A stretch of 64,000 bases of DNA, from the NCBI RefSeq assembly GCF_000002985.6, contig NC_003280.10, forward strand, positions 10,164,501 through 10,228,500, written 5' to 3'. Positions 40,906 to 64,000 of the stretch are shown here, in pieces (position 1 is the first letter of the stretch; each line of letters opens with the position of its first letter). A program made the position numbers and the translations under genes. The notes beneath the pieces were generated by a model. The model was not told the DNA's origin and searched no databases. It saw only the letters and a list, made by a program, of their open reading frames with translations. This DNA comes from Caenorhabditis elegans (Eukaryota; Nematoda; Chromadorea; Rhabditida; Rhabditidae).

Positions 40906-41871
40906 GGCAAATACTCATTGACTCCAAAATCATTGACTACCTGTTCTCATTGCCTACCCTTGCTCATTGACTACCCTTGCTCTTTGCCTTCCTGTTCTCA
41001 TTGCCTATCCTTTGCTCATTGTCTACTCATTTTCTTCATCAGTCAAGAGGCACGTACAAGGACCGTTTTCCAAGAATACATCAAAGGTACATCTACTCAA
41101 TTTGTTCATTCATTCAAAGGGTATACATATTTACAATCTTTCAATATGTACACAACATTTCGGGCAACAATTAGTAGTAGCTGAGTCATGTTTTAATTTA
41201 TATTAATTTTGATAGGACACGAAAAAGCTGGGCAACATTCATTATTCATCAACATTAATAGCAACAATGGCAACAAAAAACAACAATTAAAAATTTGAAA
41301 AAAAAGTGACAAAGAACGTAAAATCAATAACAATGAAATTTGGCATAAGAAATTCATTCGGAGTCGAAGTCAATCACTCGTTTTCTGCTTTTGAGTATAT
41401 AGGAACATGACGCCGTAGTATCAGACATGTCAGACAAGGTTGCACTGGAGTTGATGACTCCGAATGAATTTCTTATGCCAAATTTCATTGTTATTGATTT
41501 TACGTTCTTTGTCACTTTTTTTTTCAAATTTTTAATTGTTGTTTTTTGTTGCCATTGTTGCTATTAATGTTGATGAATAATGAATGTTGCCCAGCCTTTT
41601 CGTGTCCTATCAAAATTAATATAAATTAAAACATGACTCAGCTACTACTAATTGTTGCCCGAAATGTTGTGTACATATTGAAAGATTGTAAATATGTATA
41701 CCCTTTGAATGAATGAACAAATTGAGTAGATGTACCTTTGGTGTATTCTTGGAATACGGTCCTTGTACGTGCCTCTTGACTGATGAAGAAAATGAGTAGA
41801 CAATGAGCAAGGGTAGGCAATGAGAATAGGTAGTCAATGATTTTGGAGTCAATGAGTATTTGCCACAATTT
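40906..41871. repeat. Foldback element: near-identical inverted arms of about 420-460 bp
   Basis: The left arm (40906-41365, starting gcaaatactcattgactcc) is repeated in reverse orientation at 41456-41871 (ending ggagtcaatgagtatttgc), with a unique 90-base centre. Over most of their length the arms differ at only a few positions (for example atcaaagg/accaaagg, ccgttttcc/ccgtattcc, aaaagctgg/aaaggctgg). The left arm has about 44 extra bases in its outer ctcattgactaccc-type minisatellite section. The same small open frame appears on both arms in mirror image, so it is not a gene. High identity indicates recent formation or homogenisation. Confidence 0.92.
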
Positions 41872-42275
41872 ACTTGTTCAAGGATTTAGCTCTTTCGTGT
41901 AGAGGTTAAAACTTTAAGGCCGAAGGTGTAGGTCGCCTAAAATGCAGGCGATAAGTTGTGTGCCTACAATGTTTTCGTTTGTCTCGAATTGTGTTTTTTC
42001 CATTAATTCGGTTGTTTATTTACCCAAACACTTCACCTTCAATTGCAGAAAACCTCAATGTTTTGCTTTCCGAAGACCAAAATAGATATTTCATAAAATT
42101 TCTCTCAGAAAAAAAGAGAATAACATGTGGAATGTGGTGAACAATTTCTATGAATTTTCTCTTATATCCAGATGCTTTTTCATTTGAACCTTTGAACTTC
42201 AACCCTTGATTTTTATTGTTGCAGATCTTCACAACATATACAGGGTACCAAAAATGTATCTACAATAACTATACC
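41872..42275 (+). other. Upstream region and 5' leader of the LRR gene
   Basis: About 400 bases between the foldback element and the LRR start codon. An acceptor (ttttattgttgcag, about 42225) precedes a 50-base leader containing a tiny upstream frame ATG-TAT-CTA-CAA-TAA (42254-42268), then the main ATG at 42276 in ccATGG context. Confidence 0.55.
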
Positions 42276-44592: not shown

Positions 44593-44916
44593 ATTGTTTT
44601 AAGTTCTACATATTTTTTCTTACAGGTCTAAAAGTTTGTCTGACAATTTTTTTAAAACAATATTAATATGAATATGTAATTTCTGTATGTTTGCCGTGGG
44701 ATACCTCAAAAGATATTTAAAGTCCATGTCTGATTTAAATAAAATAAAACATTCCTATTCGAGAGTAATGTATGAGAGGAATTAGGAAATTGAGAATTTT
44801 ATGAAAACATTGATTTTTTCAGAAGTTCTTGAATTTTCTACATGTTCCTATAAAAATTACTTCCTTTCTCGAAACTTTCCAGAATTTGTGACTTTGGTAA
44901 CCGTATATTTAGTGGA

Positions 44917-44950
44917 GATTCCCATCATACCACCTGCTGAGCCGGTGATC
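44917..44950 (+). promoter_or_regulatory. Duplicated CSL-containing module, copy 1
   Basis: A 34-base core beginning gattcccatcatacc and ending gagccggtgatc. It recurs at 45200-45233 with one mismatch; similarity continues more weakly on both sides (about 44884-45005). Includes TTCCCAT. Confidence 0.75.
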
Positions 44951-45199
44951 TTTTCCTTGCTCATCAATTTATGCGGCTCCCACTTTGGTGGTGATTATGA
45001 GAAAATGTGAACTAAAAGCTTGAATTTGAAGATTTTTTTCTAGATGAAATAACTACAATAACAATAACTTTTCAGAAACATAAAGTTCCCTTTTGGGATG
45101 TTTTTTTTCTGGAAAACGTCTTTTCAACACCAATATGTTTTCTTCATTTTTCGTAAAATACCCAGGATCTGTCACTTTGGTAGCCGGATATTGAGCCCA

Positions 45200-45233
45200 G
45201 ATTCCCATCATACCCCCTGCTGAGCCGGTGATC
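45200..45233 (+). promoter_or_regulatory. Duplicated CSL-containing module, copy 2
   Basis: Second copy of the 34-base core (33 of 34 identical to 44917-44950), 283 bases downstream in the same orientation, again with TTCCCAT near its start. Confidence 0.75.
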
Positions 45234-48200
45234 CTTTCACCTGATCCAAGCGGTTCGCACTTGGGTGTTTTCCGAGATTGACTGAAATTGAGGATGTAGA
45301 TCAGAAGATTCCGGAAGTTATAATCATGGGAAAATATAGTTTTTGCTAATGAGAAATTGAATTTTGGACGTAGGGCAATTTCTATAGACAACAGAAACCT
45401 AACATTCCAAAATCTTTACTTACAAGCTCCCCAGGAACATTTAATTTTTTTGCAACAAATTCGAGGTCGTTAGTCAGTTCATCAAGTCAGTCGGGATATG
45501 GTGTCTGCATAAGGTGTCGGTGTCTATAAAAACGTTAGTGTATCGCTCAAATTTATGAGCGCCGCGCGCGCCGAGTCGGCCTGTATCAAAGGGACACACG
45601 TTCAGATTTATGGCGTGTTCGTGCGAAGATGGGCGCCTTCCGCACTCAAGATTTGATCGCCAATTCCCAATTTGTTGCGAAAATTGGCGAAGAGATCGGA
45701 CGAATCGAGGAGACGCGGAGACACGTAGGAGGACACGCTTTACGAGGAGGTGTACGGTATAGAGAAAGGACATATTTTATGAAGGTTCCAGTGACAATGA
45801 TTTCTAGTGATATTTATGGCACAGACATTTTATATGGCTTTTGTCGTTTGCTACGATAATATCGCATTTTTATTGTTGGATCAATTTTGAACACTACTGT
45901 AGATTTATACTTTTGTAAAGATCTTTTTTGGGTTCTAGGTCTCTACGAGAGTAATCAGGCTTTTTGTAAGATACACTAAATTTAAAATCTTTGTTTATTC
46001 ACGTACAGAAAAATTTAAAGTTTACAGGTTTCGGGTGGATTTCATTTTGTGAGTTGAGTTAAAATTGGAAACCGCTCAAACTTTCTTCAAATTAAGTATA
46101 ATTAAATTGAAATTCACTCGAGCTGAATTCTAGACCATATTTCAATTCCACACTGCCTTTAAATAAATATTTTCCCATGGTAATTATTTCCGGAATCTTC
46201 AGAGTTTAGGTCTCGGAGGGCATTGATCACAGAAAACACCATTGTGTGAACCGCTTGTAGAGATGAGCAGGTGAGCAGATTGATGGCTCAGTCGGCCAAT
46301 GTTTTGGTACTCTCAGTTTTTTCTGCCAATGGTCTGTACAATTGCAACTTACTCATTTTAACTTTGTCTGAAAAAGTTACGAAGTTACGTTAACTCAAAA
46401 ATTCCGATATAAATTCCTAAGCAACTACTACTAACTGAACAATTTATTTGATAGTTCTAAAAGTCCCAGGTAATTTTCCCATGACCTTTATACCTTCAGA
46501 TTCACAACCGGAAACCGACACATTCAGATTTCACACCTAGGTGTCAATTGCTCGTTCCTATCTGACAGTACACATTTTTCAAAAATAATTAATTTTCTAT
46601 TGGCTTTAAAGGTAAAGAAAGTCCCATAGAAGTTCCACGTGGAATTCCGTTTTAATGCGAGACCGCACGAAAAGAGGTACCAATTTAGGAAATTGTGGGA
46701 ATTGTGCCGTTTCCCATGTCGAAAAACTGTGGGGTACTCCAAAAATTGTGAGATATGGGAAAATATTCCAATAGAGAAAATGAAGCGACTGTAAGTTTCA
46801 GATTTTCGAAAGTCAAAGAAATGGAATGCAACCTAAAAAAGCAATAAATAAACTTCAAGTGTAGCCTAGGAAACATGCTACGTCCTACGCAAAGAAAATC
46901 TTCAAAGTTTTTTTGCTGTCTACATTTTTCACTTAACAGTTCATATTCGTTTGAAGAGTCGTGCAAAGTTTGACCAAAAAATATTACTTTTTTTTGAAAA
47001 CATGTTTTTCTGGGTCATCATTTTTAGGTTCACATGTTCTTTATAAAAGTTTCTACCGAAAAAAGGGTAAACAATTAAATCAGTTTCTTTTTCAATTTTT
47101 TTGGTATTAGCCGAGAGCGATTCTAATTTCTATGCACTTCAATACTAAACTTGTATGTACATTTTTCTCGACGGCACGGTCAGTAAGATGGGGACCCCTT
47201 TCTTCTCCGTTACCTTCGTCCCAAATGATATCCTCTTCCAATCTTTATGATCAAGTCGTGGCGCAAGGTGTTCTTCTTCTTTCCTTCTCGTAAATGTTGC
47301 CCTCTTGCCGCCGACAACACTGTGTGGAATAAAATAGATAAGTATCTGAGAACCAATAATTACCATTGCCTCTACTCTCTGTACAGATTGGGGCGACAAA
47401 ATGGCGTAACTTGAAGACAAGACGGAAATTTGTGGAAAAAACGATTGATCTTGGAGTGATAGGATCATTTTTTGAATGTTATGGTTTTATTTGTTGCTGT
47501 TTCATTTTTTTACTATTTTTTGGTTTTTTTTTGTAATTAGAATAATGATGTAGATTTTTTCTGACCGTTATCCTAGCATTCCTAAACTTTTCCTACCGTA
47601 ACCCTTTCCATATTTAAGCACCCTTCTTGTTGGAATTTTCTCCTCCTTCCGAAACAAAATGACACAGTTAATGAAAGGGACGGTGAAACTTCTCCGTGTT
47701 TTAAGGTTTATCAACAGAAGGTCGATCCGTACTTGGAGATACAACGCCGACGCACACGCTCGCACGCGGAGGGGCTACTTAGGTAATAAGCGTATCGGAA
47801 AAGAATCCCGACTTCCGACCGGAAAGACGGGTTCAATTGAGTGACAGGTAGCAAATGGGAGAATGGGGGAATGGTGTACGGTAGGTACGCAATACGTCGT
47901 GTAATATGGTGTAAAAATAGTGATTATTCAGTCGATTAAAGACGGGGGTCTTCTTGAAAATTTCTTCAGAACTCACCAATTCAGCCAAATGGGGTACAAA
48001 CATCGTATTTCAAACGGTTTAAGTCAACTGCCATTATGCCGTACTGTAGTTTTCCAACTGTATTCTTCAAGACGTTTTTCCCCAATATTTACAGAGCAAT
48101 CAACTGTTTTCTCATGAATATGTTTAAGGAAAACGAATACTAAATCATATGATTTTTCGTCGGAGTGCTGATTTATGAATCCGTATTTTATTTTTAGCTT

Positions 48201-51200
48201 TTGCATCGGAATTTTGAAACATAAGTTTTATATTTTACATATTCTTTTAATTTTGCAAAACGCATTTTAGAAATGGTACAGGCACTTTTCGTTATTGTTA
48301 TCTAGATTTCAAACAGCTTATATCTTTGTTGTCGTTTGTTTTGTTCAACAATTGTTACTTGGCAAAAAAATTGTCTTCTTTCTCTATTGGTTTGTAGTTG
48401 ACTATTTATTTGTATCGTCAAAATGTGAAGTAGTGTGATGCAAGTGAAAATACGGTTCCTGTGAACCCTGAAATAGCTACCAGCTATCCCCCTAGTCAAA
48501 AAACCAAGTCGAATAAAATATATAATTTGTCATCCAATAAGCTTGTTCATAGCGCGCCACCACGTGTGGATATCTCAATTTGTCCAGTATGCCGACAAAG
48601 AATCAATGGGTGGCTGCCCAGTTGGAAGTCCTATGGTGCAGTCGTTTTTTTATGGATATCGCCCCACATTTTGTTCAGCCCACTTTGATGGCGCCCGCTT
48701 CACCCAACCACCTTCGACAAATGATGTGTGCATAATTAATGAGAGTTTTCACCTGTGAGATGAGGTCGGTTAGTTGATGGTGAAAGGGCGCGGGCGGGCG
48801 AGTAAAAAACTGACGGACGGCGGTGATGATGAGTATGCTGTTAATGCAGGTGCTGATGGGAAAAAATTGGAAAAACATACACATATGTTTGGGTAAGTAC
48901 GGGCTATTGAACTTTAATGACCTTGTTTCGCTTTTTTCACTTTTTGAAGTAAAAACTTGCTAGGTCACAGTTTTCTGTTTCTAAATATTTTTCTACATAA
49001 TTTTTTGGTAGGGTTTCCAATTTGCAACGCTCCATACTGAGAGCCCCTGTAATTCAGAATATTTTTTTGCACGCTCATCATAGTCTAGGTTCAGTTCAAA
49101 TTCAAATTTATCTACTGTAGTCCGGCAGCCGGTGTTGAACGTGCGCTTCAAAATTTCAGCACTAAAATTACCGTTCATTTCAGCTTTAATAAAACTGTCT
49201 TAAAGTTTCGAAAAAATCTAGTAATTCCTCCCTTTTTTCTATCTGTTTATTTTAAGATTTCACATGCAGACCCATATTCTCACAGATTTATTTCCTGAGA
49301 ACAGAGTGCTCCATACGTGGCAAGGCCTTGAACAGCCCGCAGACGTAACTTGTAACATGCCTGTTCGGACTCATTTTGGTGAGAGTCTCCCAGGACTTGA
49401 AATATTAGTTTCTTCTATAAACTGTAACAATCTATTCACCAAAAATCCAATTTTTAAATTTTTATTGCAATTTGTTTACTGATTGGAAATTACACTTTTA
49501 CATATAGATGACGATGATGTGGTGTGTTTACAAGTATACCTACAGTTTACAATCGAAGGTGAACATTTACATAATTATGATGTTGACAAGACTTGAACAT
49601 TTAGTCCTAGAAGATTATCACATAGCATGTTTCATCCACAAATCATGGCACCGTTCCCTCTCCTTAATCTCACTGCATCATGATGCTGACAGCCGGATGG
49701 ATGAACCCTTCACGGTGAAAAGGGCGCGCGCGCGGTCCCCTCTTTTGATCTATCCACAATTTTTGACACGAGATAGTAATAGACACTATGGGATGGGAAA
49801 TCGAAATTTGGTGCAGAATTGAGGAAGAAAATAAATGTCGAGCAATTGCAATTTGTCATAGGATTACTGTAGTTTTGGTATAAAACCCTTAATGTACATG
49901 TTAGTTAGTCAAAGAAAATAATTATTATGAAGTTTATATATTTTCCCATGCTTCTGGGATTCCCAGGATCCTAGCATCACTCCACATTCCCATCTGATTG
50001 TTCCGCGTGTCATCCACAGTCACGGAGAAGTACATCATAAAATCCGCGTTCTTGTTCCGTGTCAATTTGCTCGCGGCGGTGTTCACTCGTCTTACTTGTC
50101 ATCATCAAATGTTGTTTCCCATACCGATTTATCATTGTCGGGGCGACGTGATTGTGGTGGTGCAGGTGTGTAGAGTGGTGAGAGATCGGGGGATATGAAG
50201 AGGTTGGGGATGTGAGAGGGCTTGGAGAGTTATCGCGCACTATTGGCTCTGATCTCGCCGACGACAACACTGATATCTTACAAAACACAAAACAACGAGG
50301 ATTTTAGTGAATTGGATGATTGGTGGAGTTTATGAAGCTAGGAGGCGACTAATTGCCCTAGATAATGGCTTATAACTGTTCCAAATTTTATACCATAAAA
50401 ATATACTTCTCTGGAAAGTTATGCATAGTCATAGTCTTCCACGTTCTTTATTTCCTAGTTTATATGGATACTCAGCATTTGAATATACACAGCTCTGCTG
50501 ATTTTACAATTTATTGTTTAAATTGAGTATACTCAATTGCCTCCAAGTATACTGCACATGTCTACCATAGGAACCAGGGCGGCCACAAAATTACCGTATA
50601 TTCTAGTGGAGTAGCACCCGAGTTGTCAATTTTAACAATTTTCAATGGAACAAACGGCAACTGAAATATAAGCTGTCAAAGTTGAACAAGTGGGGTAGAA
50701 CACTATATTTGACCAGAAATTTTAAAAAAGTTATTTATTTTTCTATTAACCAAAAGTAAACATTTTTGAACACAGTTCTTTGTTATTTTTTTTAGAAAAA
50801 CAAACCAAGAAATCTATTTTTGTCAAAAAAACAACTTTCCCACCTCTCTCATCCAAAACTTGCTACCTAATTACAGCGATTCTACCCTTGCATAAACCAT
50901 AATTATTTACTCTGATATCAAGATCAGATAAAGTACAATATTCACCGGAACAAGAATTTCCCATGAGCCCAGCATGCTCATTTAGGTACTTGACTCAAGA
51001 TGGTGCAATGTTCCCACATTACAATTTAGAAGGGACATGCATATCTAAAGATGCCGACGAGATTACTTGTACAATTATAGTAAGAACATGTACTGATGGT
51101 ACAAGATGTAGAGTGTGAAAAATTGTCTGGATTACTGTAGTTTTGAAGATTACTGTACTAGATACTGTACTTAGATAAAAGTTTATTTTTGTGAATTTGA

Positions 51201-53548
51201 AGTGCGTAGAGTTTTCCAAGCAACCTTTCGAATGGGGCAATTCTAACCAAAAAATATCCCAAATCTTGAAGTTTTATATGCACTCCAAATAGTAGTTACC
51301 GTATTTCCTCTATTAGTACTGCACCCCATTATTTTACTTTGAAAAGGTAGAAAAAGAAATAACAAATATTTTGGTAGGGACAATTTTGTATAGTTGAACA
51401 ATGGGTTGCAATACTGGTAGAGGAAATACAGTAAGTTAACTGGATGTTCTAATCTGCTTTTTGGCTCTGTTAGCAATTTACAATGAGCTAAAGAATGTTT
51501 GTCTGAAAATGTAGTTTTACTTGAAATCCCCGTTTCTACGTGTAGAAAATGCAAGAATTACTCAACAATGTAAGTAAACTGGTTTTATTTAAACATCTAA
51601 AAAATTCGTTACATCTCACTTTTTTTCATATTCAAATGTAATCATTGATTCTTGTTGTTGTTCTAGATCTAGAAAAACTGGGTCATCATGCAAATCATAA
51701 ACATGCATACCATAAAATCGGTATACCTAGAAGGTATACCCAAATGTTTACAACTCATGATGATATAGTGCATCTCCACCTTGTGCACCTCCATATGCAT
51801 TCAGATGTTTACAGACTATCATAAAAGTCTCCAGCACGCCGTTTATGATATTGTTTACCAGAATGCACGTAGATATTCCAGATTATTTGAATATTTCTAG
51901 ATTTGAAATATACCAAAAATTTCCCAGGGTCCCCCATCTCCAGAATCACAGCCGGAAGTCGGTCTCAATTTCGCACCACAGTGTCAAAATATAATACCGA
52001 AAAAACCTTGCTAATTGTCGTGAGAACCTAGTGTAAATATAACAACAATATGGTATTTTATAGGAGGGAAATTGAAAATATAAGTACATAGAAATAATGT
52101 TGAAATTCTCAGGACCACGCGTGTCAGATGGCTGGGAACGGTGTATGTACCAAATTAGCGCGCAATGGGAAATCTGCAATATTCTCACAGTTGTGGAAGG
52201 TCATGGAGTGTCAGGTTTAGATGGGATCTATGAAAACGATATTGAAGATAAAAATAACATTGAAATCCATTATGTTCCTTATTTGTTTCATACTCGGTGT
52301 TTTCTAACTTTCGCCTAAAACATACACATATAATTGGTTGAAAAGTTGGAAAATTCCAGAAAACGTATTTTCTGTAATTTTAAACCTGAGTTGTATTAGG
52401 CTTGTTTAAGACGAGAAATAAATTGGCGGTAAATGCCAAATAGACAGTTGTGTTCTGAAAAAACAAGCCTTACAGACTTGAATAAAGTTCTAACCATGTC
52501 ATAGAGCGTGCGCAGGCCCTACCGTAGAAAACAAAACATTCTACTATTTTGATCTCTGTAAAAGTTGATCTCCTAGAACTTAAATGAAACCAACTTTGTT
52601 ACGTTGAGTTTGTAGATCGTAAGTATAAAATGTTTGTCGATGCAACCTTGAATATTTTTTTTTAATGTAGGAAATTTTTAGGGTACATTCACTACGCAAG
52701 TACCTATTTTTGTCTTCCAATAATTGCCAACGTATTCAAATTTAAAAGAACTCATATCATTATCATCTATCAAAATTCAACTCTCTAACCTATATCTTCC
52801 CACAGTCTCACTAGTTCTCTCATCTTCACGTGCCCCTATATTCCCACCACTTCCGTTATACCCCTCTCTCCCTGCACCTTTCCCATGGTTGCCTGCCAGC
52901 CAAAGGAGGCGTGGCCTATGCACATCCAACGAGACGGTCCCCGCCTCTAGACGCGTCCGGTTGCAATTAGTCAACAAGTGGGGGCTATCAGAATTTACTT
53001 TCATTCATACATCTTCTTCTCATTTTTTTGTTTGTTTTTTAGTTCCAGTATTTACTTTAGCTGTTTTGAGATTTTGAGAAGTGTATTTAGTATACATTCC
53101 TAATTATTTTTTGCCCTAAATTCTTTAGAGTCTTACAGTAGCAAATCTACAGTAGTCTATAGCTATGGTTAAGAGTTTCAGCTACAGTAGCAACATAGTT
53201 CTACCTCACCAGAAATAGTATTGCTACTGTAGCGCTTCCAATTTCTAGTTTTCCTTAAATTAACCAATTCTCACTTCATTTTAACATTCTTCCCCCGAAT
53301 TCTCTATGTCTCACCTCACTATCAGTCTTCCAAATTTTCACCTCAAGTACAGTACATCTGAAACTCTAACACCTCCCCATGCATTTTACTGCCTGTAGAT
53401 CCCTCTTGTTTACCAACTTCTTTCATGTTCTTCCGGTCTGCCGTTTCACTTCCTTTTCTCACCTTGTCGGACCCCTAGCTCTCCATTAAAGGATTAGTAC
53501 CGCCTGAGCATCCGCCCGGCTCTTCACAGTGTCGCCTCTCACCAGGGG

Positions 53549-53680
53549 TTATCAAACCAATATGGTCAAGAGTTGTGGGAAACTGTGTCATGACTCAAGT
53601 GCTTTTTTCCCATGCACACTTATCAAATGATTCCCACACTGATAACTCGGCACGTCTTTTGTGGTTGATAGTGATGGGAA
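53549..53680 (+). promoter_or_regulatory. Promoter-proximal ref-1 cluster: four CSL sites with GATA sites
   Basis: TTATCA at 53549; GTGGGAA at 53575; TTCCCAT at 53607; TTATCA at 53620; TTCCCAC at 53631; TGATAA at 53640; ATGGGAA at 53674. All lie within 132 bases and about 300-420 bases before the ref-1 ATG. The core GATA-CSL-GATA group spans only 26 bases. Endodermal GATA factors plus Notch input would fit embryonic ref-1 expression; that link is inference. Confidence 0.6.
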
Positions 53681-53972
53681 CCATTGGGATATAATTTTTT
53701 TTGGCGAAACGACACAAAAAGTGGGTTTTTAGGGTTTAAGGCAATTAAATTTCTACGAATAAGATTCTAATCTAGAAAAAGAAGGCGTGCTGTAGAAGTG
53801 AGGGGTACTGTAAATCGCCACGCTCCCTCTTCCGAATGGTTTATGACTTTTCTCTATATCTCCTTCTCTTTCTCTATATTTCTCAAATTCCGCAACATTT
53901 CTCCCTTCTTGATTTTGTTCATTTACAAATCGAGCTATAAAAATCAATAAAAACTTAATTTTTTTTCCAGAA

Positions 53973-55236
53973 ATGGTCCTCATCAGTACCCCACCACCAG
54001 CTTACGCTCATAACAGAAAAACATCACAGGAGAAGAAACGACGAGATGAGATTAATGCAAAGATCAAGGAGCTTCAACTATTGATTCAAAATGAATCGGA
54101 TAATGAGAAAATGACGTGAGTTTTCTATTCGTTTAGTGTTATCTTCATTCAAATCTTACTAATTTTCAGCCAAGGTGATGTCTTAAACCGTGCAGTCGAA
54201 GTGGTCAGTCGCATGGAAACCGAATCACCTGGACCATCATCAAATCCAAATCGCAAAGGATTCTTTGACGGATTCCGATCAATCGAGTCGCTCACTTATT
54301 CCTTCATCAAATCCCTGGGCGTCAATTCAGATGTCTGTCAGGATTTTGTGCAACGTGCCAAGCAGTTTTTCGATCGAGAACGTTCATCTTTGCTGAGCAC
54401 TGTATCTGGAAAATCAAAGAGAAGATCTGAGTCGGAAATTCTCCACTCTTCAATGAGCTATAGATCCCAGTCAAGCTCTCCATCGACATCGGAATCTGGA
54501 ATCACAATTGATAGAAAGGAAGTGAAAAAGAATAGAGAGCAAGATAGAAGAGATCGTCAGGGAGAAGCTTTTGATGCTTTGAAGAACTTTATCATTGAGA
54601 ACAAGCTCATGACATCTCATCAAGTGTAAGCTTAAATTTTCCCAATACCATAAATTAAACTTTTCCTTTTTTCAGCGAAAAAATGCAACGCTTGAACACC
54701 CTGGATATCATAATTGCCTACATTCAAAACAAGAAGCACAATTTTGTTAGTCGAAGCGACCAGGAGCAGTCACTCTATGCACATGCAATTGCAGAGGGAA
54801 AGAAGACTGCAAAAAACATTGCCTTCCAATTTTTCAAGGTGAGTTGTCAGGAACTTCGAGAAGATTTTTTTAAATGTTATCAATATATTTTCAGAGCGAC
54901 CGTCACCTCGTTGTCCGATGCGCAGACCTTGAAAAGTTCTTCGAATTCTCCTTATCACCAAAGCCACTCTTTGGATTCCCATCCATGCCCATCCCAATTC
55001 CACCACCATCATTCCCAATCTTCCCATTCCGGCCATTCCCATTCTTCCCAATGCCAATGGCACCAATGGCAACAAGTCCAAAATCTCAACAGTCTCCATC
55101 ATATTCACTGGATTCTCCACCACCATCATCCGATACTTCTTCGTCATCAATCGAAACACCATCCACTCCAAATGAGAACTCGAATTCCAATCCTAAAGCT
55201 TCAAGAAAGAGTAAGCTGTTCAGACCATGGGAATAA
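53973..55236 (+). CDS. ref-1: REF-1, double basic helix-loop-helix transcription factor
   Basis: Exons 53973-54115, 54170-54625, 54676-54838, 54895-55236 give 367 residues. bHLH 1 lies at about residues 14-62 (SQEKKRRDEINAKIKEL, then loop and helix 2 ending RAVEVVSRM). bHLH 2 lies at about 174-235 (NREQDRRDRQGEAFDAL ... LNTLDIIIAYIQ). Two bHLHs in one chain define the nematode REF-1 family, relatives of Hairy/E(spl). Between them is a Ser-rich linker. The last residues, KLFRPWE, are a variant of the WRPW Groucho-binding motif, expected to recruit UNC-37. The Pro/Met-rich stretch before the tail (FPSMPIPIPPPS) is low complexity. Known roles: Notch-dependent embryonic patterning and Hox-linked epidermal fates. 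The ATG follows an acceptor (ttttttttccag) by two bases. AATAAA is at 55505. Confidence 0.96.
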
Positions 55237-58200
55237 CTTTTCTAAAAAATATATCTCCTTTAATTGTAATTTAGTGTTAAAAGTATATATTCTTATTAAT
55301 AATTTATCAACCTCAAAATGTTATCGACTTTTTCAACTTATCATATCATTATCATCTCACAACCAAAATCTAGTTTTATTGTCACGGGCTATTAAGCTTA
55401 CCGGTAGGTTTTATAAATCCTTAATTGTTGTTTTCCCTCAGTATTCATAATATTTATATTGAATTTTCCGATTTTCAGTGATTTTGAAGATTAAATGACT
55501 GCAGAATAAAGTATTTATTATCTCTATTATAGTGTTGTATTCTGGTACCTTGTTTCCCATGGCAATTGGTTGCTCATTGCCACGTGTCTCGATAGAATGA
55601 TGTGACAGTTTTTATTCTCCCACCACCTTGTTCCAGACAGACGACTAATTAGTGTTTTAGTGGGAAATGGTTAATACAATGATACTTCTAATTCAGAGGG
55701 TTTAAATCCACAAGGAAAGTATTTCCGCTCTAAATTGAACTTCCGAATGTAACCTAGCTATTTTTTTCTTTGTAAAGTTGATGCCTTTTGAAAAAAACAT
55801 GTTGAACATTTTGCAGATTTTTTTCAACATATAACATTTTTCGAAATGGCTTCCGGATGATAATCTAACCCTAAACACCCTGAAGCATTAAAAATCTCCA
55901 TTAAAGTGAATGCATTTTGAATTTAAAGCTGAGTTTGAAATGTAAACCTTTTTTGTGATAAACAAATATTTTCGAATTCCTCAAAAGTTCAAATAAGAAT
56001 TGCCGATCTTTGAGGTTTCTCTGTTGTTTCCTGCGAATTGTCATCTCGCCGATTATTTGGCCGTTCAGTATTTAGAAACAGTACATTTTAGCCTGGTGTG
56101 CCCCCGATACAAACTTCCTTTGTCATCTTTTCTCATGCAATATTTTCCAGAAAAGTTTTGTATAAAAATGCACTGATGCTGGAAACTCAATTTTTGCCAC
56201 AATTTTTTCCCGAAACTTTTCGCATCTTACTTATAAATATTTGTACTTTAGTTTAGTAAGTTGACATTTACAAATCAAAAGTGCGTAAAACTTTTTTAAT
56301 GCGGAAACCCAGAGAAAAAGTGTGTTCGGACTGTTGAGGCGATTGTCTCGAAGTTGTTGGCGAACCCGAACCGGTCCGCTTTGTTTGTCTCTCAAAACCT
56401 CTTCATTTTCTTTTATCTATCATATTTCACCTATGTTCTATACACCCATTCACCCCCATTTTATGTATGTGAAAAAATGAAAATTTGCATCTGAATTCAG
56501 AATATTTTTGTCGTTTTTTATAAGCATTCCTTTTAGGTGTCAATTTTAACATCTCCAAGGAAAATGGTTTCGAGTTTTTTAAAAATTTATATTTAGAAAG
56601 TCTGATAACAATACTTTATTTTAGGATTAATGTTAAGATCCGAAATTTTTTCATAAATGTATGGCTTCTTCCGCAAATGCAAAACAATTGACACGACTCT
56701 AAAAGTTTTCTTTTTTTTCTGTGATTTATATGTGATGTAATTTTTCTGTGACTTTGTTGCATATACATATGTAGAGTTTAAAATAATTTTCTAAAAAATC
56801 AATCTTGACAATTTTTCACTTATATGTCTAAAATTTTTTTGTAAATTTAATTGGGTAAGTTTATCTATGATACTATAATTTTTAAAAAATCGGGTTACAA
56901 TAAAATGTATCACAGCTTTCGTTTTTCATTAGCAAATACTTTGGAATAGTTATAGAAAACTTTTAAATGATCATAAATGTCTTCAAAGTAAATAAATACA
57001 AATATTGAAGCGTCTTCATTCCAATGGAATGAACAAATTGAAAATCCGATAAAGATTTAATTGAAAAATATTGGAAATGCTCCTCTTCTTCTTTTTCACA
57101 TTCACATCGTCCATTTCTCTTCAATCAACCAAAGCGATTCGAATTTTGTTGAAACAATATTCTTTTGCTCTTTCTCTTTCTCTTCCAGTTTCCAGCCCTT
57201 TTCATTCAATTCTCTTTTCTATGTGTGAAGCACCAAAAGCACAAAACTCGAGGAGCATTTTTCTTTATCAAAAAGGAATTGTGAAAATTTCCCAATTTAG
57301 TCTGAATTATTTTTCCACACACCGTTATCGAATTGTGCTCCTCGCCGTGGCTAGTATGACGTTATCATACTGTCATTAGGTCATATGTATTATATTTCAC
57401 ACTTTTACTTTATTGTGCTCCTTTTTTCTTGAAATGTCATTCTTTTTTCTTGCAGTTGTAGAATTTCCGGAAACTTTTTTTTCTGAAAATATAGGAATAG
57501 GGAGTTGATTGGGTTATTGGAGCTCGAATTAAACTGAGGGTAAATAAGTTTTTAGGAAATAATTTTGAAGGGCTGTGGTGCTTTTGTCAAAATATACGCG
57601 ATTTTTTAAAAACCAAATATGAAAAAAAAAATTTCAGTCACGGTTTTGGCAAATTTTCAAAATTTTGAAAAGTGTGATTAGTTGAGATATTTCAACTATC
57701 CTTGCACATTTGAGCCAATCTTTAGCACAAAGAATTAAAGCATAAAACACATTTTTGCCGGCTTTCAAAATTTTGATAGATAAATAGTAATTGTTATAGA
57801 AACTTCTTTTGCCAATTTTGCAGAAAACTTTCATAATCTCCAATCGCAATTTTCTTGTTGAAAACCTATTCATTCCTCTAATAGAAACTACATTTTTAAA
57901 ACTTATTTATAAATTAATTGGAAAAATTCACAAATATCCAGGCAAATAAGACATCTTGTTTAAAAAAATGTAATATCTTTCAATATTACTTGAAGCCTTC
58001 CCAGCCGCTTCTTGTGAATTTTCTAAAAATTTCTAAGCGAACTATTTTAAAAAATTAGATTTTTGATCAAGTTCTTGTTTTATATTCTTTGATTTTTTTT
58101 TCAAACGGGAAAGTATGATTGATAGTTTTTTTACCGGAAAAATACAACAATTTTTGATAAGAGATTATTCATTTTAACAACTGAATTGCATTTCACTAGT

Positions 58201-58377
58201 TGAATAAAATAACTTTTGTTATGAGAAATTGAAGAAACACCACATTTTCGTAATTGCTTATAAGTTTTAAATTAATTTCTAAATCAGAAATTCTTTCAAT
58301 CGTTCTTTTGCAAGGAAGACCGTTAAAATTTTCTTTTTTATGTGCATCCAATTTCATAAATCCTTCAATTTCTCAGC
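55237..58377. other. Intergenic region between ref-1 and plc-3
   Basis: About 3.1 kb, AT-rich, no gene supported. Two more RTGGGAA-type sites (55554, 55660) lie just beyond the ref-1 poly(A) signal. A pyrimidine-rich stretch at 57080-57230 gives a hydrophobic open frame that is not convincing as a gene. The segment ends with an acceptor (caatttctcag, 58376) directly before the plc-3 ATG. Confidence 0.55.
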
Positions 58378-61300
58378 ATGCAACACGGCTCACTTGGCCC
58401 ATCATCGTCGTCTCGAAAGACTACAGTAACCAGCACAGCGGGCTCCGTTCACCTTCATCACCGCTCTTCAAATGGTTTCTCGACAGCATCACGAGCTCAA
58501 TTGAACCGTCACAATGAAATGGATTTTGGGAAAATGTTTGCGGCAATGGAGAAAGGTCACAAAGTGTGCAAAATTGCGGTGTTGAAGAAATGGGATCCAG
58601 CCTATAAACAATTAACGTTGGATCGGTACTCGAGGCAGATTTTTCTGACAAAATTGGAACTGTCAGCTGTTAGGTAAGAGGATAAGTAACATCGCATGAA
58701 ATTCATTTACATTTTTTTCAGAAATAAACCGACAATTCTAGATATTCGACAAATCCGTGAAGTACAGACATTGAATTACAAATTGAACACAATTAAAGTA
58801 GATGATAAATGGAAAAAGGATCGAGAAATCGTAAATTTTGATTCAAAAGCCATTCTAATCATCTCATATGGAATGGGATTTGCTCTTTCCTATTGGATTC
58901 TTTTGTGTGAGTTTTTGTTAAAATAATTATTCAATAGTTTGAAAGAAAAATGTTATAGTTGAAAGTGAGGATGCGTGCAAATTATGGTCACAAGGACTTC
59001 ATAATTTGATGATGGACACAAGAGATCGAGACTCATCCCCTCATCCATTGAGAATTGAACGATTTCTGCATAAACACTTTTTGAGTTTAATGTCACCGGC
59101 TAATGATGCGTAAGTTCAAAAATTGCAGAATTTTTTAATAATAACAATTTTCCAGCGTTGCTCGAAAGCATATGAAACCATTTGTTCAAACCTCCCTCCA
59201 ATTCAAAGTTCAATCTGATCAGCTCCAACAAGTGACAGAAGATCAAATGAATTCTGATCAATTCAGTTTTGCCAGTCGTCAACTTATCCATGTACCTGAA
59301 CTCTTCTCTTCAAGATTCGCTGATCTTGCTGAAAAACATGAACGAAAAGGTCTTGTGGTGACGTTTCAAAATTTTTTGCGATTTCTTGATGGCAAACAAT
59401 TCGATGAACTTGCCTCGAATCGAACGAGAGCTTTGGAGTTTTTGAATCGATATTTTCAAGAAGATCAAGCATATTTTGGAGATAGAAATGAGCCTTCAAT
59501 GACTGTTTTCGAGTTTTGTGATTTTTTATTTTCAAGGGAGAATTCGCTGTGGGACCCAACAAATGAGAAAGTTACTCATGATATGAGCAGACCATTGTCT
59601 CATTATTGGATTGCCAGCTCGCATAATACGTTTGTTTTTTTTTTGGTCTATATAAGTGCTAAACCAGTAATTTAATTCCAGATACTTGACGGGTGACCAA
59701 CTTCGATCTGAATCTTCTTTGGATTGTTATGCTCAAGCTCTTTTGATGGGTTGTAGATGCATTGAGTGTAAGTTTTAGAGACAATTTTCACTGTTTTATA
59801 AATAATTTTATTTTTCAGTAGATTGCTGGGATGGACAGAAGAAGCCCGGGTCAGCCGAGTTCATTGATATTGTCATCTATCACGGGTATACGATGACCTC
59901 AAAAATTTTGCTCCGCGACGTGCTTCACGTCATCCGTCACTATGCATTTGTTACGAGTGAATATCCAGTAATTCTATCAATTGAGGACAACTGCTCGGTG
60001 CCAGCTCAACGGCTTCTAGCTCAAGAACTGAAAGATATTCTTGGTGATTATTTATTGACACAACCAGCAAATCGTGAAGAAAAACAATTGCCCTCCCCGG
60101 CCGCGTTGAAGAAGAAAATTATCGTGAAGCATAAGAAGTTGCCGATAGAAAGCGAGGATTTGGCAGCTGTGGTGAAAACTGATGAGTGTAAGTTTTATGA
60201 AATTACTCTAGTTTCCTAGTAGTAAAGGTATAAATCATTTTGCTAAATGATTTTTGTTTCAGTCCAAGACACGGAAATCATATCTCGCGAATGTGTAAAG
60301 AAGGGGATCCTGATGGTAAAAAACAACAACAGTCACGAATGGACATCTCATGTTTTCATATTATTCCCTGATCGTCTTTGCTACCTGATTCAAACCGCTG
60401 ATCCTGAAAATCCAAATGACGATACAGTGAGTGTAAGTGGAGATGAAGAACGGGAAGAAGAGACGCCTTCTGGATTTGGAGTGAAACCTGAAGAAATGCA
60501 TGTGACTGAAGAATGGTTCCATGGAAGATGTGAACGGGATGAAGCGAAAAAACGGATTCTAGAGCATAAGGAGAAGGGAAATGGATTGTTTATGATTCGA
60601 GATTCGAATCTGTTCATTGGAGATTTCTCACTTTCGATTCTACATGACGGGAAAGTTCATCATGTTCGGATAAGATCCAAGATTATTGATAGTGAGTTTT
60701 TCTATGTTTTGCATGTAACATGTATTCGAGAATTACAGTAAATAGAAGAGAAACTTTTAATAAAATTTTCAACTTTTCAATTTTTCAGAAGAGAAAAAAT
60801 ATTACTTCATGGATAACAAAGTCTGCGACACTCTTTACGAGTTGGTCTCTTACTACACCCGTCACTACCTCACAACTGCTCATTTCAAAATGGTGCTCAC
60901 GATTCCATGTCCTCAACCACAACCGCATCTTAATCAGCCATGGTTCTCTGCTACTGCTGACAAGGAAAAAGCCGAAGAACTTTTGAGCTTGGTGCCAGAA
61001 GATGGTGCTTTCCTAATTCGGACGTCATCGACTGACTCTTCAGTTTACGTTCTTTCGCTAAAAGTCGACGGCGAATTCTGGCATTATCGATTGAAAAGAG
61101 ATGGAAGAATTTTCGTGGTGAATCAAAAAGTATTCGAGAATTTGAATCAAATTGTTGAATTCTATGCGAATCGAGAATTTGTTAGAGGAATTAGTCTTCG
61201 ATTCCCTGTCAATGAGAAGGATATATCACACCTGACAGCTGAACTTGCAGAAGCTCGTACTCCAGGTTGCTATATGGATCTGAAGGATTTGGATAAAGAA

Positions 61301-64000
61301 GTTCAAGCTCGAGCACTTCGACCGTATCGAGGAACAGCTGATGATGAACTTTCGTTCCCAGCGAATGTTATTATCACAGTACTCCGGAAGGAAGAAGGTC
61401 TTTGGAGAGGAAGATATGGATCGTTGACTGGATGGTTCCCTTCGGCCCATGTACAAGAGATTCTACCAGAGAAAGTTTCAACTTCAGGTTAGTTTGAAAA
61501 AATTAATGTAAACAGTTTATCTCATAAAATAGCAAGTTTAAATTAAGTAGTCACTATCAAAAAGGGAACTGAATTTCGTGTGGGCTCACTATTATTATTT
61601 GTATTCTTTTGAAATAGTTTAGAAGCTGCCAATATATTTAGTGTAGCATCACGATATGGTTTATGCACAATGAGCATCACAATAGTTGAAATCAAACCAT
61701 GAAGAGATAGCAAGCATAAAGAAATATTAGTTTGAGCTGTAATGAATATAGTAACTAGATTATAGTTTTAAAAGTGTTACCTTGATTATGATACTCCAGA
61801 GAAACTTGAATAATTACAAATAGAAATGGAATAAACATTAGTAAAACAGGAATAGTAACTTGAATACAAATTGCTCGAAATAGTCTCTTTTGTAAATTTC
61901 TAGTCCTTTCTGATTTTCTATCATCTTTTCCACTTAAATTCATCAAAAGTCGAATGACAAAATAAATAATCTGCCCTTCAATCAATGAACTAGTGATAAT
62001 AACTGAATAGTGAGTTACACGGACATCCAGAGCTAACACAAAAAATCGATTTTCATCGACTTCACATGGAAATTGTTCCTTAACTATTTTGATAGCTTCC
62101 GACTGATTTGGAATACGTAAAATAGTTGGAATGACAAAAGTGAACGCCAGTAAATAGTTGAAAATAAAGAACAGAGCTCGTCTGACTTTTCGACTAGAAA
62201 ACTCGAAAATAATGGTGTTATAGCGGTTCTCGAAAATGTGAAGAATTGCTACACCGGTTACTGAAATGATAAAATATAAAGTTCCAAATTTCCTGCAAAA
62301 CTTACAAACAATTACAGTCAACATAACATAAATTTGAAATGGAATATTCACATCCAAATAACCCAGCAATCCCATGGGAAACCCTGACATTGACGGTAAA
62401 AGTATAAATGGAGCAACAAATAATCCCATAAATAAATCCATTAAAGTACTCCAAAAATGCAAATTAAATATGACCAATTTGACAAGATTCATTTGATTCG
62501 GGGTTTTGCACAAAATACAGTACCCTCCGAATATGTAAATTGGAATTCCAACAGCCGATATTATGTGTAGACTTATTTGTAAAAACTTGGGAGAATGAAA
62601 GAATGATAGAGTGGGACAAGAAGCTTGCATTCGATAGAAATTTGAGTTTTAGTCAGATCTGAAAAGAAGAAAAATAAAGTATCATCCCTTCTATGCTTCA
62701 ATGATTTTTTAAAAATTTGATTATTCTATCAGAGTAAAGTGAAATCAAACATCAAAGTTTTCAGAAACTAGCAACTACAACACAATCGAGCTAGCTGGAA
62801 CACTAATTGAACGGATTCATGATGCTGATCGTCCGAATGTTATCAGAATATCACAATCAAATCAACATTGGATGAACAAGCAATATTATTTGTTGGCTGC
62901 TTCTTGTAAGTTGTTCTTCGAACTGAAATTCTGGGGTTTACAATTTCGACAGGCTACAAATTGTGTTGATATGGCCCGAAAGAAAATAGAAACTCTTTAA
63001 AAAAATTTCAAACATTATTTAAATTAAATTTGGAAATTTTGTGACAATTGAAAGCGTACCTGAATCTACAAACTACTACAAAAATTTATTTAAAAAAAAT
63101 TCAAAACGGAGAAGAAAAAAAAAACAAATTAGATTCACTTTACGCAAATATTTTTCAACCTGGATCCCAACTTAACTTAAACTATAATTTTCCAGCCTCC
63201 GAGGAAGCAGATGGTTGGCAAAACAATCTCTTCGAGCTGACTCGTTCAGTTAACACAAAAATGAGCATACTCCGAACCAAAGAAAAAGAAAAACGAATTG
63301 CCGCTGAGCTCTCAAATCTAGTCGTCTACTGTCAAGCTGTTCCATTCGACCCAGCCCATATCTACAATGACGCTTTCTATGAAATGTGCTCATTTGTCGA
63401 GGGAAAACTTGACAAACTGGTTGAAAAGGGGCTTCTTCCGTTTAATTCCCGAAAACTCTCGAGGGTCTATCCGAACGGAAGTCGAATCACATCGAATAAT
63501 TATAGTCCGGTTCCAATGTGGAATGCAGGATGTCATATGGTTGCACTAAACTATCAAACCGGTGATAAACCCATGCAGTTGAATCAAGGAAAGTTTTTGG
63601 CAAATGGAAGATGCGGGTACCTACTGAAACCAGATTATATGTTAACTGATGACTTCGATCCTACGAACACGGAAAAGTTTGCAACAGCTTATCCCATTCG
63701 ACTGAATGTTCAAGTGATTGGAGGACGTCATTTGTCAAGAAAAGATAAGAATAAAGGAATATGCTCCCCATTTGTGGAAATTGAAATTATTGGAATGCCA
63801 TGTGACACAAAAGTTTTTCAAACTAAAACTATAGGTAATTTTTAATATTTTTTTTCCTTTTTAAAAATAAGTTTCTAAATTTCAATTAAAATTTCAGCAT
63901 CAAACGGTCTTAATCCGATCTGGAATCAAACTTTCACATTTGAGATCCAGTGTCCCGAAGTAGCACTGATCAGATTCCACGTGGAAGACGGTGACTTTGT
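58378..64000 (+). CDS. plc-3: Phospholipase C gamma (truncated at window right edge)
   Basis: Exons 58378-58673, 58722-58906, 58959-59109, 59156-59629, 59682-59767, 59819-60187, 60263-60691, 60789-61487, 62765-62905, 63196-63834, 63898-64000+; 1,190 residues so far. Order: PH (about 60-190), EF-type helices, X catalytic half with SSHNTYLTGDQ (His 367) and VIYHGYT (His 419), then the gamma-specific array: split PH, SH2 (EEWFHG, about 604), SH2 (PWFSAT, about 714), SH3 (about 835-893, ALRPYRG ... GWFPSAHV), second half of the split PH, Y half (about 979-1090) and the start of C2 (about 1110). It hydrolyses PIP2 to IP3 and diacylglycerol; in C. elegans it acts upstream of the IP3 receptor, for example in ovulation and rhythmic contraction. 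The start is the first in-frame ATG after an acceptor. Confidence 0.95.
61488..62764 (+). other. plc-3 intron 8 hosting a nested antisense receptor gene
   Basis: The largest intron of plc-3 seen here (1,277 bases). Its middle is filled by the complete minus-strand Srh gene (61543-62630), leaving about 55 and 135 bases at either side. Confidence 0.85.
61543..62630 (-). CDS. Srh-family 7TM chemoreceptor nested in a plc-3 intron
   Basis: Exons 62306-62630, 61781-62260, 61543-61736 give 332 residues, the typical Srh length. Family words: [12 protein letters not shown] (TM2), [23 protein letters not shown] (after TM3), [13 protein letters not shown] (TM6) and [19 protein letters not shown] (TM7 and tail). 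Intron 1 (62261-62305, 45 bases) is a multiple of three and open, so an unspliced reading also stays in frame; splicing restores IVLTGVAI, which fits the family better. Srh proteins are nematode chemosensory GPCRs. The whole gene lies antisense inside plc-3 intron 8. I cannot give its srh number. Confidence 0.85.

Follow-up and report, generated by a model that had tools for sequence, protein, structure and literature searches.

The window, that is, the whole 64,000-nucleotide stretch of DNA that was analysed, corresponds to positions 10,164,501-10,228,500 of chromosome II in the 100,286,401-base genome of Caenorhabditis elegans. Towards its right end lies a gene whose spliced protein matched the Pfam family HLH (PF00010, 1.8e-14) in two stretches and ended in FRPWE. 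We take this two-HLH protein to be REF-1, encoded by ref-1, a name that agrees with the literature. The start ATG at 53973 is preceded by a TTTTCCAG acceptor, and exon 1 ends near 54115 by reading. A protein search of the genome with one REF-1 exon matched only itself, and a wider search for the HLH family returned 33 places. In the worm embryo this gene is well established as being targeted directly by Notch, and its long 5′ region is the subject of this analysis.

The interval studied (44593-53972, 9.4 kb) is bounded by gene ends, independently of the position of any site. Its left limit is the end of a leucine-rich-repeat-like gene (the LRR matches were weak and sub-threshold) and its right limit is the ATG of ref-1. 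Pfam searches with five open reading frame stretches from the interval, looking for a hidden gene, returned no family above the cut-off and one sub-threshold DUF, while the window gave no match to Rfam and none in a tRNA search (which used the bacterial code). A minus-strand open frame of 120 codons (45056-45415) overlaps a direct repeat and has a partial second copy at 44860-45024, which a genome-wide protein search showed to be 57% identical, with one stop. Elsewhere in the genome this frame had no match at E 10, and it belonged to no Pfam family at E 0.1; it may be a small orphan gene, a pseudogene or a non-coding duplicate. To the left of the LRR-like gene we observed two period-17 tandem repeats (40930-41026 and 41796-41840), and the near-identical translations of the open reading frames at 40937-41206 and 41616-41885, on opposite strands, suggest an inverted duplication.

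Sites matching RTGGGAA were located by an exact scan of both strands. The main features are the following (a group joins sites up to 200 bp apart):

44857-44955 and 45139-45238, no strand assigned: direct repeat, 82% identical, one ATGGGAA per copy (44919, 45202)
45247-45337 and 46167-46257, no strand assigned: arms of an inverted repeat, 73% identical (37-bp core 86%), ATGGGAA at 45326 and 46172
46476..46482, minus strand: single ATGGGAA (exact scan)
46695..46761, no strand assigned: distal group of three sites (46695, 46711, 46755), nearest HGATAR 137 bp away
48856..48862, plus strand: single ATGGGAA (exact scan)
49793..50122, no strand assigned: distal group of four sites, including 49943 and 49987 (exact scan)
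50837..51017, minus strand: distal group of three sites, with one TATTTAC and one AGATAA inside
52165..52171, plus strand: single ATGGGAA on the border of the 1.8-kb promoter (exact scan)
52797..52886, minus strand: triple of 90 bp (52797, 52841, 52880), all on the same strand, less than 1.8 kb from the ATG
53575..53680, strands +,-,-,+: proximal group of four sites starting at 53575, 53607, 53631 and 53674 (exact scan)
53973..55236, plus strand: ref-1 coding region (Pfam HLH on the spliced protein; ATG and exon boundaries by reading)

Density of RTGGGAA sites upstream of ref-1

The interval contained 24 RTGGGAA sites (17 ATGGGAA and 7 GTGGGAA), or 2.56 per kb. To its left, positions 1-44592 contained 15 (0.34 per kb, the same as the 0.333 per kb of the genome as a whole), and positions 53973-64000 (10,028 bases) contained 7. 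The original prediction, with 21 sites (2.2 per kb) in the interval and roughly a dozen (0.3 per kb) to its left, had slightly undercounted both, and the excess that it described turned out to be stronger. Given the genome total of 33,383 RTGGGAA in 100.29 Mb, 3.12 sites would be expected in the interval (Poisson P 6e-14), and its density is about seven times that of the rest of the genome. A dinucleotide-shuffled control, which the prediction had proposed, bore out the excess: among 1000 shuffles of the interval the mean was 3.15 and the maximum 10, against 24 observed.

Twenty random 10-kb regions of the genome displayed 0-8 sites, with a mean of 3.55 and a variance larger than Poisson. This over-dispersion weakens the P value of the interval from 6e-14 to about 2e-7, as obtained from a negative-binomial fit to the 20 regions, which corresponds to about 0.002 over 10,000 windows. 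Counting duplicated pairs once leaves about 22 independent sites, for which the negative binomial gives about 0.01 over 10,000 windows. The density (24 against 3.1) thus far exceeds the genomic and shuffled background, as is characteristic of a homotypic CSL/LAG-1 cluster. Long regulatory intervals may commonly carry some of this excess, as the controls used here were the genome mean, shuffles and random regions.

The enrichment continues past 53972, and the best-scoring segment spans 44919-55660 with 30 sites. By reading, three of the six sites on the gene side fall in Phe-Pro codons and one lies across the codons of the C-terminal Pro-Trp-Glu. Inside the coding sequence, RTGGGAA occurs at 54976, 55021 and 55036, in a Phe-Pro-rich stretch, and at 55227, in the FRPWE codons; the occurrences at 54976-55233 may be attributable to coding constraint. 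Across the genome, RTGGGAA outnumbers the reversed control word about threefold (33,383 against 11,041). Satellite arrays bear RTGGGAA, by which naive searches for LAG-1 clusters are inflated.

Proximal and distal groups of sites

Five groups of three or more sites were found (3, 4, 3, 3 and 4 sites), besides one pair and five singles. These groups comprised 17 of the 24 sites, against 7.9 under uniform placement (P 0.007), and nine adjacent gaps were of up to 60 bp, against 3.3 expected (P 0.001), both considering the interval alone. The groups named in the prediction were accurate (46695-46761, 67 bases with a head-to-head pair at 46695/46711 separated by 9 bases; 49943/49987; 53575-53680), and its grouping has to be extended by the triple at 52797-52886 and by the quadruple at 49793-50122, which absorbs the 49943/49987 pair. 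A genome-wide search with a pattern of three sites on one strand also retrieved the triple, which was among the first 100 matches, those listed, out of 755.

A 44-bp periodicity was considered and rejected. Distances of 43-44 bp made up 4 of the 14 pair distances up to 100 bp, with a marginal P of 0.045 in a jitter control (best 3-bp bin). Throughout the genome, same-strand pairs with a gap of 36-38 occurred 57 times, compared with 51 for the reversed control, and many of the 57 were in repeats by eye.

The proximal part (52171-53972, assuming that the published 1.8-kb promoter ends at the ATG) contained 7 sites against 0.6 expected. Three GATA motifs lie inside the proximal group (53620, 53640, 53666) and one just upstream of it (53549), so that the 151 bp of 53540-53690 contain four HGATAR, against 0.45 expected, beside four LAG-1 sites. 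LAG-1 sites adjoining GATA motifs near a promoter, the arrangement of a Notch-GATA enhancer, are thus found at 53540-53690. Such an enhancer of ref-1 was reportedly described by Neves, English and Priess in 2007. Position and composition of 53575-53680 agree with the published 153-bp fragment, and we infer that the two are probably the same enhancer; part of the array would therefore already be explained. Both a 1.8-kb and a 153-bp ref-1 reporter are active in the Notch-signalled cell pm8 (PMC3764189), and disrupting head-to-head sites left a ref-1 reporter unaffected (PMC9058496). A partnership with GATA across the whole array was rejected, since the interval contains 26 HGATAR against 28.1 expected. 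Nine of the 24 sites, all four proximal ones included, have an HGATAR within 40 bp, compared with 20% of positions.

Beyond 1.8 kb from the ATG lie 17 sites, counting the one at 52165 that straddles the edge and enters neither the proximal nor the distal count against expectation. The sites at 44919/45202 and 45326/46172 occupy matching positions of duplicates, so the members of each pair are not independent. The array had been predicted to reach back to the LRR gene, and five sites do lie at 44.9-46.5 kb, but four of them are these two duplicated pairs, leaving few independent ones. The duplicated pairs favour an alternative in which only the proximal 1.8 kb, with its 7 sites, is functional and the distal sites are neutral remnants produced by local duplication, by base composition or by chance, and the activity of the 1.8-kb and 153-bp reporters agrees with it, as expression in pm8 suggests that the distal array may be dispensable. 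The distal excess, however, survives the duplications. In the distal part (44593-52170) 16 sites were found against 2.5 expected, and with duplicates counted once 14 remain, a 5.5-fold excess (P 5e-7). Without the duplicated block (46204-52170) there are 12 sites against 2.0 (P 1e-6), and from 46772 on, leaving out the 46.7-kb triple and the site at 46476, there are 8 against 1.8 (P 6e-4). Base composition alone is further contradicted by the one-base variants of ATGGGAA, which, except for GTGGGAA, were enriched at most 2.7-fold. We therefore consider it unlikely that the proximal part alone is functional.

From their sequence, it is plausible that the distal sites are candidate additional Notch enhancers. 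A more specific reading, which we put forward tentatively, is that the 17 sites beyond 1.8 kb might constitute three or more further Notch-responsive enhancers, providing separate or redundant inputs in non-endodermal cells; it also specifies that distal sites are mostly ATGGGAA and mostly without close GATA partners. The prediction of several distributed Notch enhancers stands insofar as the array is motif-specific, clumped and enriched outside the 1.8 kb; its proximal portion, in turn, is very probably the known enhancer, and its distal portion provides candidates. Whole-worm LAG-1 ChIP-seq of mid-L4 animals displayed no peak at ref-1 (PMC7153901), which the authors of that study explain by the stage or the number of cells. 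No mention of the distal sites was found in the available parts of PMC3764189, PMC7153901, PMC9058496, PMC4817974, PMC3606163, PMC8289040 and PMC6316802, a statement that applies to those parts and not to the literature as a whole.

Motif specificity and repeat content

Enrichment of words in the interval was evaluated against a background of 244.6 kb (the 20 random 10-kb regions plus the window left of the interval). TGGGAA was the most enriched of 1,903 6-mers, and among 4,553 7-mers ATGGGAA ranked 1 and GTGGGAA ranked 25. The base preceding TGGGAA was decisive for the enrichment, which was 8.9-fold with A, 5.1-fold with G, 2.6-fold with C and 0.5-fold with T; one-base variants of ATGGGAA at all other positions reached 0 to 2.7-fold. 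The excess is thus specific to RTGGGAA over neighbouring words, as in a homotypic CSL/LAG-1 cluster. As RTGGGAA is the preference of LAG-1 (PMC3764189, PMC6316802), the array fits LAG-1/CSL. Meanwhile, GTGGGAA is given as the canonical form in PMC7153901, and the 17 of 24 sites that are ATGGGAA count against a LAG-1 array. The ratio of A to G forms (17:7) did not differ from that of background sites (50:36, P 0.35). In a post hoc comparison, the site was preceded by A in 1 of 24 cases in the interval, 30 of 86 in the background (Fisher P 0.002 for interval against background) and 2 of 17 in lag-1.

Ikaros proteins and CSL have the TGGGAA core in common, TTGGGAA being the form expected for Ikaros, and TCCCNNGGGA is the motif of UNC-3. 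The top rank of TGGGAA among 6-mers would also be expected if the excess were due to a different protein recognising a related core, for instance UNC-3 or a zinc finger of the hunchback/Ikaros type. This is very improbable: TTGGGAA occurred once against 2.1 expected, A or G being favoured at the first base, TCCCNNGGGA had no occurrence in the interval, and REF-1 is described as a direct target of LIN-12 (PMC4817974).

Two other words were enriched, both noted post hoc. The forkhead-type TGTTTAC occurred 8 times at 47067-53407 against 1.1 expected (TRTTTAC 12 against 2.8), with three copies at 51745, 51806 and 51852. PHA-4/FoxA sites close to LAG-1 sites predict expression in pm8 (PMC3764189); in the interval, only 3 of the 24 LAG-1 sites have a TRTTTAC within 110 bp. 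GGTGCAG occurred five times (48635, 49810, 50159, 51319, 52872) against 0.2 expected. Two copies have a LAG-1 site (49793, 52880) no more than 20 bp away, and the copy at 51319 is inside a dispersed-repeat piece.

Such pieces, belonging to one or more short dispersed repeat families, were found at approximately 48313-48428, 50620-50708 and 51290-51441, the last being an inverted repeat, with about 100 matches elsewhere. Elsewhere, two or three of them often occur together, and they are probably parts of one element. A genome search with 46600-53560 returned 100 further matches, all in these three short stretches (40 of 113 candidates scored), while searches with 44593-46599 and 53560-53700 returned only self-matches; the search method ignores very frequent words and scores a subset of the candidates. 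No tandem repeats were called in 44593-53972. That satellites or dispersed repeats bearing RTGGGAA landed in the interval is suggested by the three-site pattern, whose matches elsewhere were mostly satellite arrays by eye (among the 100 of 755 listed), and by the presence of three dispersed pieces and two local duplications with sites, but it is almost certainly not the explanation, and can largely be dismissed for the 20 sites that the two duplications do not contain, since no tandem repeat was called, the dispersed pieces contain none of the 24 sites, and both flanking stretches matched only themselves among the candidates scored.

Proposed mechanism and comparison with known systems

The excess of sites, their motif specificity, their clumping and the juxtaposition of LAG-1 with GATA motifs in the proximal group are observed directly. 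We consider it likely that they reflect a homotypic LAG-1/CSL array which selection has preserved in the long region upstream of ref-1, and the literature describes ref-1 as directly targeted by Notch. Both this selection and any distal activity we infer from the pattern. According to this proposal, cleavage of LIN-12 or GLP-1 would lead LAG-1 and the Notch intracellular domain to occupy several sites per group. By analogy with sygl-1, the grouped sites would synergise in cis, with polarity not being crucial and with no need for the paired arrangement known from flies and mammals, and would thereby activate ref-1. Endodermal GATA factors would act together with the proximal group (53575-53680), while the distal groups (46.7, 49.8-50.1 and 50.8-51.0 kb) and the 52.8-kb triple would most likely provide further inputs from Notch, perhaps as redundant enhancers or as ones serving other cells. 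Besides the predominance of ATGGGAA, the lack of GATA enrichment over the interval and the missing mid-L4 ChIP-seq peak at ref-1 (PMC7153901) count against this proposal.

Collectively, the predicted observation was right and strong, and its interpretation divides into a proximal part that is known and a distal part that provides candidates. If the distal enhancers are real, ref-1 would be under the control of a distributed LAG-1 array and not of a single switch. Working distal groups would provide a compact test of the number and form (ATGGGAA or GTGGGAA) of LAG-1 sites per Notch-signalled cell, and of redundant Notch-target enhancers in an animal without the paired-site mechanism. If they are inactive, they would serve as a warning that a strong and specific excess of sites need not equal an enhancer.

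A cluster of LAG-1 sites in lag-1 has reportedly been linked to autoregulation by Choi et al. in 2013. Two 10-kb pieces of lag-1 contained 17 and 5 RTGGGAA, fewer than the ref-1 interval. The 17-site piece lies just 5′ of the DNA-binding exons and is, like ref-1, a homotypic array in a gene of the Notch pathway. Its sites are mostly GTGGGAA (13 of 17), whereas those of ref-1 are mostly ATGGGAA (17 of 24; P 0.004). The density of LAG-1 sites in the lag-1 gene is also described in PMC3764189.

In sygl-1, two or more sites are required and act synergistically, polarity not being crucial (PMC9058496). In the literature, the number of LAG-1 sites matters and their polarity does not. While sygl-1 displays one compact three-site CGTGGGAA cluster, ref-1 displays several groups across 9 kb.

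The paired Su(H) sites of flies and mammals have in common with ref-1 the presence of CSL sites at a HES-type gene and a close head-to-head pair. Their spacing is about 15-17 bp, and the Notch interface that they need is not conserved in nematodes (PMC9058496). The head-to-head gaps at ref-1 are 9 bp (46695/46711) and 25 bp (53575/53607), outside this spacing, and we rejected these pairs as paired sites of the fly and mammalian type.

A close likeness is also that to the published Notch-GATA enhancer of ref-1, which belongs to the same gene and combines LAG-1 and GATA motifs within approximately 150 bp; of the 24 sites it would cover between 4 and 7.
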